A stretch of 64,000 bases of DNA, from the NCBI RefSeq assembly GCF_001307315.1, contig NZ_LGUC01000001.1, positions 1,984,001-2,048,000 on the forward strand. The letters are read 5' to 3'. A program made the position numbers and the translations under genes. The notes under the pieces were generated by a model. That model saw only the letters and a list, made by a program, of their open reading frames with translations, had not been told where the DNA came from and searched no databases. Below are positions 37,018 through 41,428 of this stretch, piece by piece. This DNA is from Halolamina pelagica. Its GTDB lineage: Archaea > Halobacteriota > Halobacteria > Halobacteriales > Haloferacaceae. Positions within the stretch are counted from its first letter, which is position 1, and every line of letters begins with the position of its first letter.

Positions 37018-37642
37018 TCAGGCGATGTCCCGCGAGGTGTCGATGTTGACGCTCTCGGCCAGGCGGAGCTTGATCGGTTCGGCCAGCGCCTTGCCGCCGC
37101 GGAACTTGGGGACGACGAGGCGGTTCTCGATCTCCGCGTTGGTGATGGTCGTCTGCAGGTCGAACACGACATCCGCGACGTGGGCGGTCACGTCGCGGTT
37201 GTCCGGCACGTCGACGCCGTTCAGCCCGTGGAGGATCGCGAGGCCCCCGTGTTCACCATCACCGTCTGGAGCTCGTTGAGGAAGCGCCGGAAGCGGGCCC
37301 GGTCGTAGCGCTCCAGGCTGTCGACCACGTCGATGATCAACGTCGCGCCCTCCGGGAGCGTGCCGATCAGGCGGTTCGCCTTGTCCAGCGGCGCGTCGCC
37401 GCCCACGTCGCGGACGTTCGGATCGCCGGTACGGGTGTTCGTCCGCTCGATCCCGTCGATAACGGCCTGATCGGACCGGACAGTCGTCAGATACAGCGTC
37501 GGCCGCGCGGCCGTGAGTTCGTAGAGGAACAGCTCCGACTGGCTAGCGGGCTCTGCGGAGAGCAGCACGATAGAGCCCGCTGGCAGACCCCCTCGAGCTC
37601 CCTGTCGAGGACGTCGATACCGGTCGAGAGCCGCCGAGCCAT
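37018..37642 (-). CDS. RAD55/KaiC-like RecA-superfamily protein, DUF7504-like (two frameshifts)
   Basis: 208 residues after repair. The opening LSTGIDVLDRELEGGLPAGS is that of KaiC/RadA-like domains, but the following loop (IVLLSAEPASQSELFLYEL) lacks a standard GKT Walker A, so ATP binding is doubtful. A Walker-B-like strand LIIDVVDSLERY is kept. Haloarchaea have many such degenerate RAD55-like proteins, some linked to signal transduction. Breaks are at C runs 37588-37592 and 37244-37248. It is the last gene of a three-gene minus-strand group with the MinD-like ATPase and YlbF-like protein. Confidence 0.75.
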
Positions 37643-37687
37643 GATGGCTGTTACTGGTGTTGGGGCCAAAAGCGTTCCGCGCAGTTA

Positions 37688-38319
37688 TCAGTCGGCCACA
37701 ACGTCGCGGTCGAGGAGCGCGGCCGCGGCTCGCTCGTAGCTCGTTCGAACCGACCGCGTGTAAAGCGGACGGTCGTCGACGGCCGGGACAGTGGCGAGCA
37801 CTGGACAGCCCAGCAGATCGGCCGCGTTCGGTGGGCGGACGGTCGTTTGGGTCAGGACGGCGCCGACGACGGGCGTGTCGACTGCCCGAGCCATCGCCGC
37901 CGTCTTCGCGGCGTCCCGGAGCGCCGGCGCACAGGCCGTGCTGACTACCACGACGCCGTCGGCGACCCGTAGCGGCGTCGCGGCGTCGACGCCGGCGCCC
38001 GCTGGCGTGTCGATCAGTACTGCCGGCCGGTCGGTGCCGGCTTCCTCCCAGTCCGCCCGGACTGCTGCCAAGCGCTGCTCTGCAGGCGGGAGCGCGCCAC
38101 TGGGAACGGGGAGAACGCGACAGTCGTGCTCGTCGGCCAGTGGGGGGCGTCGATTGTGGCCTCGGCTCGCCCCGCGCGGGGAACGCGAGCGAGCGCGTGT
38201 AAGTCGGGCATGTCCCGGTCGGCGTCGACGACGAGGGGGCGGTCGGGGAGCGCGGCGGCCAGGCCGAGCGACGTGGTCGTCTTTCCAACACCGCCTTTGC
38301 CACCGGCGATCGCGAGCAT
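37688..38319 (-). CDS. MinD/ParA-like ATPase (one frameshift)
   Basis: 210 residues after repair. The deviant Walker A is IAGGKGGVGKTTTSLGLA at the very N-terminus, Walker A' is LVVDADRDMPDL and the Walker B strand is AVLIDTPAGAG. The C-terminus lacks an obvious amphipathic membrane-targeting helix. MinD-like proteins position cellular structures; haloarchaea have several paralogues. The frame breaks at the G run 38142-38147, where repair gives APPLADEHDCRVLP. It lies 46 bases upstream of the RAD55-like gene. Confidence 0.82.
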
Positions 38320-38397
38320 GGGGCTACTGGTCGCGTGATCAGTGAAGAACTCTCGGCCGGAGGCCGGCCGCCCCCGACCGCGCCGCGGCGTCCAGTG

Positions 38398-38769
38398 TTA
38401 GTCTCGACAGCAGCCGCCGGCCTCGCCGCCGAAGTCGATGACGAGCTCCGAAGAGATCGCGTTGTTCACCGCCTGCAGCCGGGCCTGAAGCTCCTCTTCG
38501 GCCTCGAGGTACTCGGCCATCTCCGGGAGCGAGTGGAGTTCGTGCTGGGCCTGCCGGACCTCGTCGACGAGCGCCTGGTCGGCCTCGCCGGTCTGGCGGG
38601 CCGTAGTGAGCTCGGCGCGGAGCGAGTCGAACTCCGAGATCCGCTGCTGGGCCTCCTCGCTCTCCTCGACAGCTCGCTTGGCTTCCTCGAAGCGCTCGTA
38701 CTCGTCGGTGGCGGCGATCCGCTCGCCGAGTTCGGCACCGAGGTCCTCGACGGTCTTGGCAACGCTCAT
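38398..38769 (-). CDS. YlbF/YmcA family protein (DUF964)
   Basis: 123 residues, nearly all helical: DLGAELGERIAATDEYERF, then EESEEAQQRISEFDSLRAEL and AQHELHSLPEMAEYL. This matches the YlbF/YmcA family, which in Bacillus forms an Fe-S complex controlling RNase Y. The C-terminus ends GGCCRD with two adjacent cysteines, a possible metal site. What the archaeal members do is not established. It is first in the minus-strand group and divergent from the antiporter. Confidence 0.8.
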   Translation of the reverse strand: MSVAKTVEDLGAELGERIAATDEYERFEEAKRAVEESEEAQQRISEFDSLRAELTTARQTGEADQALVDEVRQAQHELHSLPEMAEYLEAEEELQARLQAVNNAISSELVIDFGGEAGGCCRD

Positions 38770-38826
38770 GATCTCGATTTGGGAGTGCGCGCGTTTAGGG
38801 CTACCGACCGCGGCTGAACGGGGGCC

Positions 38827-38931
38827 CGGGCCGTTTCACTGATCGCGGCAGACAATTGCCGCGGGCCGCTTCACCGATCGCGGCAGACAATTGCCGCGGG
38901 CCGTTTCACCGATCGCGGCAGGCAATCGCTG
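38827..38931. repeat. Three tandem 35-base repeats with internal hairpins
   Basis: Units at 38827-38861, 38862-38896 and 38897-38931. Units one and two differ at two positions; unit three diverges at its end. Each of the first two contains GCGGCAGACAATTGCCGC, a hairpin with six-base arms (GCGGCA/TGCCGC). The array lies in the divergent gap between the YlbF-like gene and the calcium antiporter gene. Confidence 0.8.
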
Positions 38932-39004
38932 GGGGACACCTGATCGCCATCGCGCCACGGCCTCGGACGGTGCCGTTTTGAGGGGGCCGTTTGAACGCCC
39001 CTCT

Positions 39005-40017
39005 ATGTCGGTGTTGCTCGCGACCGTCGTGACCCTCGTGGCGACGGCCGTCGTCTGGCAGGGGTCGGATATGCTGGAGGAGGCCAGCAACCAGCTCTCC
39101 GGCCACTACGGCCTGCCTCCCGTGATACAGGGATCGGTGGTCGCCGCGATCGGCTCGAGTTTCCCCGAGCTCTCAATCGCCGTGCTGTCGGTGGTGATCC
39201 ACGACACGTTCGACCTCGGTATCGGCGCCGTCGTCGGTTCGGCGGTGTTCAACGTGCTCGTGATACCCGGCCTCTCCGCGCTACTGTCCGAGGACGAACT
39301 GAACGCCAACCGCGACGTGGTGTACAAGGAGGCGCTGTTCTACATGCTCTCCGTCGCGGCGTTACTGCTCGTGTTCTCGCTCGGCGTCATCTACTACCCC
39401 ACGAGAGCGGCCGGCTGGTCGCGCACATCCCGCCGTGGCTCGGGATGCTCCCGATCGCCCTCTACGGCCTGTACGTGTTCATCCAGTACGCCGACACCGT
39501 CGAGTACGTCGCCGAACCGCTGTCGAAGTCGGTGAACGTGCGGCGCCAGTGGGGCTCACTCCTGCTCAGCCTCGCGCTCGTGCTCGCGGCCGTCGAGGGG
39601 TTCGTCTACGGCGCCGACGTGTTCGCGGCGGCGTTCGGCATCCCCGAGGCGGTCTGGGGGCTCACCGTCGTCGCCGCCGCCACCTCGCTCCCGGACACGT
39701 TGGTGTCGATCCGCGCCGCGCGGAAAGGCCGTGGCGTCACCAGCCTCGGGAACGTGCTCGGGAGCAACGTGTTCGACCTCCTGGTGGCTGTGCCGGCGGG
39801 GATCGTGCTCGCCGGCGGCGCCGTGGTGAACTACGGCCTCGCGGTGCCGATGATGGCGTTCCTCGTCGTCGCGACGGTGCTGCTGTTCACGACGCTCCGG
39901 ACGGACCTCCATCTCTCCGACCGCGAGGCGCCGGTGTTGCTCGGCGCCTACGTGGTGTTTCTCTGCTGGATGGTGCTCGAGACGGTCGGCGCGGTCGCGT
40001 TCGTGCCCGGGCTCTGA
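39005..40017 (+). CDS. Sodium/calcium antiporter, YrbG-like (one frameshift)
   Basis: 337 residues after repair with ten predicted helices. The two alpha repeats are clear: GSVVAAIGSSFPELSIAVLS with GIGAVVGSAVFNVLVIPG, and VVAAATSLPDTLVSIRAARK with SLGNVLGSNVFDLLVAVP. The GSSFPE and TSLPDT motifs carry the acidic ion-binding residues (note Asp in the second repeat instead of the common Glu). It exports calcium in exchange for sodium. The frame breaks at the C run 39397-39400. The tandem 35-base array lies in front of it. Confidence 0.9.
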
Positions 40018-40074: not shown

Positions 40075-41428
40075 ATGCCGCCGGTTTCCGTCGGTACGTT
40101 CGCCAGCGAGTTCCGGGGCCGATCCGCGAGCGACCGGACCGCGTTCGTCGCCGCGCTCTGGGACGCTCGCGGCTGGGAGACAACCGTGGAGGCCGACACC
40201 GTCGTCGCCGAGCAGGAGGACGAACGACGCCGCATCCGCGTCGTCGACCCGGGTCGGTTCGGCACGCCGGATCTGGACGGCGTCGACGTGCTCGTCACCG
40301 CACGCGATCGTGCGGCCGTCCGCGACGCCGCCGCGGACGCCGGTGTCGCGTACGTGCCGCCCGCAGAACTGCGCGACCTGCTGCTGTACGGGATCGATCG
40401 CGACACTGCCGCACGGCTCTACACGGAGTGGATCGATCACCCCTCCAGCGGTCGGTCGACAGCGACGGAACCGGGTCGACCGTAGTCGACAGAGTGCGGG
40501 CCGGCTCCCCGCGATCGGGGAACATCGCCGGGCGATCGTCGCGGTGCTCGCGGTCGCACTCCTCGGCGTCGTCGTCGCCGGCCCGCCGCTCACAGGTTGG
40601 GGGGATCCGGGCCCGTCGCCGATCACGGCAGCCAACGTGACACCGGACGAGGCTGCCGGGGGCGCGATCGACGCCGAGAGCCCGACAGCAACTGCGATGC
40701 CTGGGCTCAGCCCCGGCGTCACGCGAGCGGGCGTCGTCGATCCGGTTGCGCTGGCCGAGGCCCACGTCGCGGGCGTCAGGAACCGCTCGCGGACCGTGTC
40801 GTGGGAGCTCACGTCGACCGCGGACGCCACCACGGTCCGGAACGCGACGGCACGGATCGCGAATGCGACCCAGTACCAGCGACGGACACTGATCGTTCAC
40901 CCGACCGATAACGGCACGAGCCGGGTCGTGGACGAGAACTACGCCGGCGGCGACGGCGTGTTCCGCCGGATCAGCTTCCCGAACGAGACGCGCTACGCAC
41001 GCTACGACCTCGGGGCGTACCCGGCGACGGAGATCGACGCCGGCGTCGAAACGTACCTTTACCGCTACTTCCTCGGCGCCGACGCCGTCGTCACGTGCGC
41101 GATCGAGTACGACACCGACTGTCCGACGTACCGAGTGGAGATCGACGGCGAGACGCCGGCCGCCTTGCCGGAAGAAGTCGAGGAGTACGAGGCACTGCTG
41201 ATCGTCTCCGACCGAGGCGTGATTACGACGATCCGGGCGAGCTACACGCTGCCCGACCGCGACGACGACGGCGAGCGCGAGCAGGTCCGGTTCGCACTCG
41301 ACTACCAGTTCGAGGACGTCGACGTGACGGCGCCGGCGTGGCTACCCGAGGCACGGAACGCGACCGCGACCGGCACCACCACGGGGACAGCGACACCGAC
41401 GGAGAACGCGACAGCGACCGAGAGTTAG
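40075..41428 (+). CDS. Unrecognised single-pass membrane protein with cytosolic N-domain (two frameshifts)
   Basis: 451 residues after repair. Residues 1-125 form a soluble alpha/beta domain (FVAALWDARGWETTVEADTV, later VDVLVTARDRAAVRDAAADA and YVPPAELRDLLLYGIDRD) whose pattern recalls Mrr/RecB-type nuclease-fold domains, although catalytic residues are not evident. One helix (IVAVLAVALLGVVVAG) follows, then an exported domain with many NxT/NxS sites and a Thr-rich C-terminus resembling haloarchaeal surface lipoproteins. Breaks are at the G run 40473-40475 and C run 40507-40510; without the repairs it would be read as two unrelated genes. Function unknown. Confidence 0.65.

Follow-up and report, generated by a model that had tools for sequence, protein, structure and literature searches.

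The two open reading frames at positions 40075 to 41428 of the 64-kb stretch of Halolamina pelagica DNA analyzed here (the window) are one gene, the frame of which is broken in the deposited assembly. The N-terminal domain of the encoded protein is homologous to Mrr restriction nucleases and has inherited the restriction-endonuclease fold, whereas its active site, as judged from the aligned residues, has been lost. A membrane helix follows, and the part beyond the membrane is assigned, by profile comparison, to the haloarchaeal DUF7537 surface-lipoprotein family. This architecture is well supported, and from it we infer a function: tentatively, the protein is a haloarchaeal transmembrane sensor or tether in which a dead nuclease fold would act as the docking module on the cytosolic side.

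Gene structure and origin of the frame breaks

In the window copy, the first piece begins with the ATG at 40075 and its frame remains open up to 40485, while the second open frame ends with the stop codon at 41426 to 41428. When the ORFs of H. pelagica CGMCC 1.10329 were compared with the window by tblastn, homology followed the first frame until 40443 and the second frame from 40505. The intervening stretch, 40440 to 40511, was translated in each frame and scored against the linkers of the congeneric proteins. The third-frame translation matches them (mean local score of 34.0 versus 18.1 for shuffled sequences, with 0 of 300 shuffles reaching that score), whereas the frame of the N-terminal piece gives no match (16.2, P = 0.67) and that of the C-terminal piece gives a bare match (21.0, P = 0.05). 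Because the third-frame linker fits the congeners and the other two frames do not, the window copy must contain two frame changes, which lie approximately 65 bases apart. An earlier note on this DNA, made from the letters alone, had joined the frames by two one-base repairs within 40 bases; the two frame changes are upheld, but the spacing is larger than it proposed. Its reconstructed length of 451 residues is right, the intact H. pelagica CGMCC 1.10329 protein having 452. The features of the gene are collected in Table 1.

Table 1. Features of the reconstructed gene, in window coordinates
Feature	Position	Strand	Evidence
Cytosolic domain at the N-terminus (residues 1 to 123) with a degenerate Mrr/restriction-endonuclease fold	40075..40443	+	Congener identity; hhalign to Mrr; model pLDDT 77; REase-fold PDB matches
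Linker in the third frame, with a frame change close to either end	40440..40511	+	Shuffle test; tblastn breaks at 40443 and 40505
Single predicted transmembrane helix, N-terminus inside	40532..40585	+	C-piece frame, limits by eye; corresponding H. pelagica helix
Putative exported C-terminal domain related to DUF7537, with a possible LolA/LppX-type fold, N-glycosylation sequons, and a Thr/Ala-rich tail	40586..41425	+	hhalign; VIA; stop 41426-41428

The gene is a single uninterrupted ORF of 442 to 466 amino acids, counted from a conserved ATG, in five of the six congeneric genomes, and the named records with orthologs are H. pelagica, H. rubra, and H. salifodinae; the sixth genome (G003) gave no match to the gene. 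The N-terminal piece shares 74% and 73% identity over 123 codons with H. pelagica CGMCC 1.10329 and H. rubra, respectively, and both pieces diverge in the manner of codons (0.25 to 0.40 at third positions, 0.11 to 0.15 at first and second positions), as is expected of a functional gene. Orthologs in the form of two separate genes were looked for, and the opposite was found. The search for fused orthologs thus bears out the earlier joining of the two ORFs, and the reading as two separate genes is rejected.

Assembly indels are the most likely origin of the breaks, because the CDK2 assembly was made from PacBio data only and many neighboring genes also look split. The assembly containing the window has 2,972,542 bases in 3 contigs, and the report on the H. 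pelagica CDK2 draft describes a non-hybrid, PacBio-only assembly of 2,972,542 bp in three scaffolds (PMC5331504). In the window, 23 of 33 orthologs of CGMCC 1.10329 ORFs look frame-split, although this count is crude, as some of the secondary HSPs (o25, o32, o35, and o56) are probably spurious. Over 54,936 aligned columns of the window, 84 single-base gaps were counted, intergenic differences included. It is very improbable that strain CDK2 instead carries a real pseudogene, or two real genes, at this locus. In favor of such a reading, the deposited window copy is indeed interrupted, but so are, on the same crude count, about two-thirds of the neighboring orthologs in this PacBio-only assembly; moreover, the congeners carry the fused gene, and the divergence is of the coding type on either side of the break.

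Many other ORF oddities in the window may be assembly errors as well, given the proportion of compared orthologs that look split. Separately, the window protein is just 74 to 79% identical to its counterpart in H. pelagica CGMCC 1.10329, and CDK2 may be another species.

Cytosolic domain

Neither piece of the window gene matched Pfam or NCBIfam at E ≤ 1, in agreement with the earlier statement that no standard family has this layout. When the window piece and 18 relatives were scanned directly with Pfam, Mrr_cat (PF04471) was not matched, NA-iREase1 (PF22722) had no match among the scanned family members, and NCBIfam returned three scattered matches on the 18 relatives, each to one member (best, invert_tail, E = 0.0037). 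A profile built from 23 aligned N-terminal domains and run on 293 genomes of the order matched 148 at E ≤ 0.001, and in about 46 of the 293, counted by hand, the best E value was ≤ 1e-14. Twenty loci with weaker matches were taken for comparison. Thirteen of them carry the catalytic residues of Mrr, which we take to be the Asp of GxD and the Lys of (Q/E)xK, and the ten of these proteins that were scanned all lie above the PF04471 cut-off (E = 3e-8 to 5e-31). These 13 loci form the Mrr reference alignment; six loci with DUF4352-type tails and one further locus (L123), which have no catalytic residues, were excluded from it. Comparison of the family N-terminal domain with the 13 catalytic-residue Mrr domains by hhalign gave 97.6% with an E value of 4.4e-12.

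The structural models agree with this relationship. The AlphaFold model of the window N-terminal domain, calculated from an alignment of four sequences, has a pLDDT of 77 and contains two helices followed by three strands, then a fourth strand and three more helices. In the VIA comparison, its top match is AF1548 (Z = 7.4), which we group with the PD-(D/E)XK proteins; the next rows are mostly restriction enzymes, including FokI, BspD6I, EcoT38I, MspJI, and HindIII, and the lower rows (Z = 3 to 4) include receiver domains and other unrelated folds. Residues 1 to 120 of the H. pelagica model are better (block mean pLDDT of 71 to 95) and match AF1548 with a Z of 9.4 and 2.5 Å over 92 residues, Z values of 7 to 9 being moderate. 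Foldseek alone gave no match at E ≤ 0.001 for the window N-terminal domain model or the H. pelagica model; the fold assignment thus follows from VIA and the profile comparison, not from Foldseek. The earlier note had described a cytosolic alpha/beta domain resembling a nuclease fold and had proposed a structural comparison with Mrr/RecB folds, and both hhalign and the models place the domain there. PDB sequence searches found matches at chance level alone with the N-terminal domain alignment (best E = 0.15) and none with the full alignment. With the Mrr alignment, they returned Wzz chain-length proteins (E = 3e-4), a resemblance that was taken as chance, and AF1548 (E = 0.25).

All 13 haloarchaeal Mrr relatives have the catalytic residues in the Asp49 and Lys67 columns, and none of the aligned family members does (0/23 and 0/64). 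Gln81 and Tyr83, which are invariant in Mrr, are likewise missing from all 64. At column 45, where Mrr has the first Asp of its loop, 56 of 64 members have Asp or Glu, which complicates the picture of a lost active site, although this column is a gap in 22 of 23 rows of the smaller alignment. At the Gln65 column, Gln or Glu occurs in 4 of 64 members, none of them with the Lys, and a loose [EQD]xK is found nearby in 6 of 64, off the aligned Lys column. The domain has conserved positions of its own, namely Tyr105 (61/64), Gly33 (54/64), and Arg109 (41/64), and no conserved charged motif that would mark an output surface was seen among the 64 N-terminal domains. Because the catalytic Asp and Lys have been lost, the domain should not cut DNA; an active nuclease is rejected on these residues, and the earlier suggestion that the protein acts on nucleic acid in that capacity is not sustained.

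Membrane topology and exported domain

The protein is a predicted bitopic membrane protein with a cytosolic N-terminus and an external C-terminus, a topology that is well supported by the sequences of its relatives. The helix was called by a hydropathy rule and not by a topology predictor. In the H. pelagica protein, it spans residues 155 to 173 with a mean Kyte-Doolittle value of 2.67 and has two basic residues before it and none after. In each of the 23 relatives tested, a hydrophobic helix separates the N- and C-terminal domains and is followed by at most a single basic residue within 15 positions; N-glycosylation sequons are more numerous on its C-terminal side than on its N-terminal side. 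In 22 of the 23, the number of sequons after the helix exceeds that of shuffled sequences at P ≤ 0.05, so that the exported domain with many N-glycosylation sites described earlier is recovered in the relatives, as is the single membrane helix.

The exported domain matched DUF7537 (PF24381) in 4 of 18 relatives at E ≤ 1 in Pfam (best E = 1.5e-5), and three family ORFs (G011:C9, G031:C1, and G035:C14) passed the curated cut-off of this entry; the window copy gave no DUF7537 match at E ≤ 1. In hhalign, the family C-terminal domain profile matched DUF7537 proteins at 98.7% (E = 1.6e-16), with a reference set of seven proteins, of which L158 is doubtful. An 18-row alignment of the family omits 5 of the 23 proteins (L024, L026, L028, L031, and L032), whose exported domain is different or unclear. 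The model of this domain in the H. pelagica protein is poor (block pLDDT of about 22 to 70, mostly below 50). The top Foldseek row for that model was LprF (E = 0.003), and VIA on the low-pLDDT domain returned LolA-carrier, LprG, LolA, RseB, and LppX structures at Z values of about 5 to 9 with rmsd values mostly of 5 to 8 Å. A LolA/LppX/RseB-like fold is accordingly a lead that these models make suggestive only. Our literature searches found no paper on DUF7537 and none on haloarchaea together with LolA and lipoproteins.

Family members and exchange of the exported domain

From 79 loci, 64 distinct members were extracted. A helix follows the N-terminal domain in 63 of them, the exception being the window fragment, and the exported part has 144 to 460 residues in 62 of the 64 (L027 is cut short). 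The exported domain is DUF7537-like in 38 members, 18 of which match by construction, as the C-terminal domain profile was built from them. Single-linkage BLAST delimits a second group, of 13 members, in which DUF4864 is matched by one representative (5e-8) but no entry by another. Eight further members (L026, L031, L111, L112, L193, L194, L196, and L201) have an exported domain starting with C-P-x-P-P, and the one representative of this group that was scanned, like those of a pair, is without a Pfam match. In one member (L104), the membrane helix leads into a PQQ/BamB-like beta-propeller (E = 2.7e-43). Thus, five classes of exported domain have been exchanged on the same stem of dead Mrr domain and helix.

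In a phylum-wide draw of 294 genomes searched at E ≤ 1e-6, 21 matched, all of them within the order, the share of the draw from outside the order not being stated. No relative was found in plasmids, for which two proteins were searched, or in viral contigs.

Gene neighborhood

The Halolamina gene is preceded by one for a Na/Ca exchanger, beyond which lie YlbF, MinD-like, and DUF7125/KaiC-like genes, and it is followed by an esterase gene on the opposite strand. In the window, the block of DUF7125/KaiC-like, MinD/ParA-like, YlbF-like, and Na/Ca exchanger genes occupies 37200 to 40017, and it is partly conserved beside the homolog in other genera. Three of the 24 loci (G010, G013, and G059) were excluded from the neighborhood set, as the codon-bias filter missed their target ORF. 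Parts of the block, together with a presumably Dph2-like gene, recur in 5 of the 17 non-Halolamina loci (G007, the first copy in G012, G019, G022, and G030). Because adjacency and strand vary among the loci, the recurring block suggests vertical inheritance for that group and not a pathway. Three other loci (G033, G218, and G258) share a context of their own, no common context was seen among the other nine when three loci were required, and no operon partner recurs across genera in the 17 loci and Halolamina.

PADLOC matched 0 of 18 members at E ≤ 0.1, and the role in defense that had been raised as an option for this protein finds no support. It is extremely improbable that the protein is an active defense nuclease triggered from outside: its homology to Mrr would fit such a role, but the catalytic Asp and Lys occur in none of the 64 members, PADLOC is silent, the context in Halolamina and in the five other loci is of the housekeeping kind, and neither of the two proteins searched was matched in plasmids.

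Possible function

A constant inside part combined with a variable outside part is the usual layout of a transmembrane sensor, and we favor, tentatively, the sensor or coupler reading; the sensing of outside signals, which the earlier note had raised, remains reasonable. The N-terminal domain would most likely serve to dock a protein or a nucleic acid, the exported domain may offer a pocket for a lipid or an acylated ligand, and the protein would then report the state of the cell surface, or couple it, to a cytosolic partner. A bolder version is possible but doubtful. It holds that the family consists of receptors in which an active-site-less restriction nuclease is the shared output domain and the surface-sensing domains are exchangeable, some with a lipid- or lipoprotein-binding LolA/RseB-like pocket; these receptors would form an archaeal surface-stress pathway without a histidine kinase or an anti-sigma factor.

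The identical layout would be given by a plain anchor, in which the dead Mrr domain and the helix replace a lipid anchor and hold the surface domain in place, perhaps setting its position or stability, without any signaling. The exchange of ectodomains on a constant stem suits this explanation too, and 6 of the 7 DUF7537 reference proteins have a lipobox-like signal start (AGC after a hydrophobic stretch), so that the domain is lipid-anchored elsewhere. On the other hand, an anchor would need less than a folded domain of about 125 cytosolic residues that diverges as coding sequence does and keeps positions as conserved as Tyr105 and Gly33, and we regard a passive anchor as unlikely. A membrane tether for DNA or RNA, whose dead Mrr fold would have retained nucleic-acid binding and act, for example, at DNA-entry or chromosome sites, is less probable still. 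Its Mrr ancestry, the MinD/ParA-like and KaiC-like genes nearby in several genomes, and the membrane helices in 9 of 13 catalytic-residue relatives, which make a membrane-bound, DNA-acting Mrr a plausible ancestor, would all accommodate a tether; however, the Mrr-invariant Gln81 and Tyr83 are gone from every member, and most of the conserved positions listed are hydrophobic, no strongly basic patch being seen in the sequence. It is because the cytosolic domain is folded and conserved that we rank the sensor or coupler above the anchor, and the anchor above the nucleic-acid tether.

To our knowledge, cell-surface sensing in archaea is poorly known, and a family present in about 46 of 293 genomes of the order supplies named genes with which it can be tested. 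The family also shows that membrane proteins can reuse a nuclease fold whose active site has been lost.

Comparison with known systems

Dead restriction-endonuclease domains are already known as modules, as in the Pfam entry NA-iREase1, and one report describes inactive enzyme domains as effectors (eLife 2020, PMC7159879). NA-iREase1, a NACHT-associated inactive restriction endonuclease, is by its name a precedent for the dead module. It matches several haloarchaeal Mrr proteins but not members of the present family, and its partner is a NACHT ATPase, whereas here the partners are membrane and surface domains. In titles and the openings of abstracts, with the subscription literature thinly covered, no description was found of haloarchaeal proteins in which a membrane helix connects a dead Mrr domain with exchangeable surface domains.

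The DUF7537 surface lipoproteins appear to have the same exported domain, but the lipobox-like start of most of those used here is replaced in our family by a membrane helix and a cytosolic domain. LolA, LppX-LprG, and RseB are the best solved-structure matches for the exported domain, the fold being taken from a low-confidence model, and the RseB structure entry is titled as a sensor for periplasmic stress response. In contrast to these proteins, with which there was no sequence match (0 hits), the present ones are archaeal and fused to a dead nuclease domain.

The Mrr_cat/COG1787-type endonucleases (PF04471) share common ancestry and the fold of the N-terminal domain with the family, which differs from them in lacking the catalytic Asp and Lys and the Gln81/Tyr83 pair and in being joined to an exported domain. 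Nine of the 13 haloarchaeal Mrr proteins with catalytic residues (L114, L118, L119, L120, L122, L128, L130, L132, and L133) have predicted membrane helices and are possibly membrane-bound restriction nucleases. A second haloarchaeal group (L115, L124 to L127, and L129) has the same layout as the present family, with an Mrr domain that is less eroded but also without catalytic residues, a membrane helix, and a different, DUF4352-like exported domain. The four of these proteins that were scanned pass the Mrr_cat cut-off; two of them pass the DUF4352 cut-off as well, and the other two just miss it. Some haloarchaeal "restriction endonuclease" matches are thus, as these DUF4352-tailed proteins warn, domains without catalytic residues.
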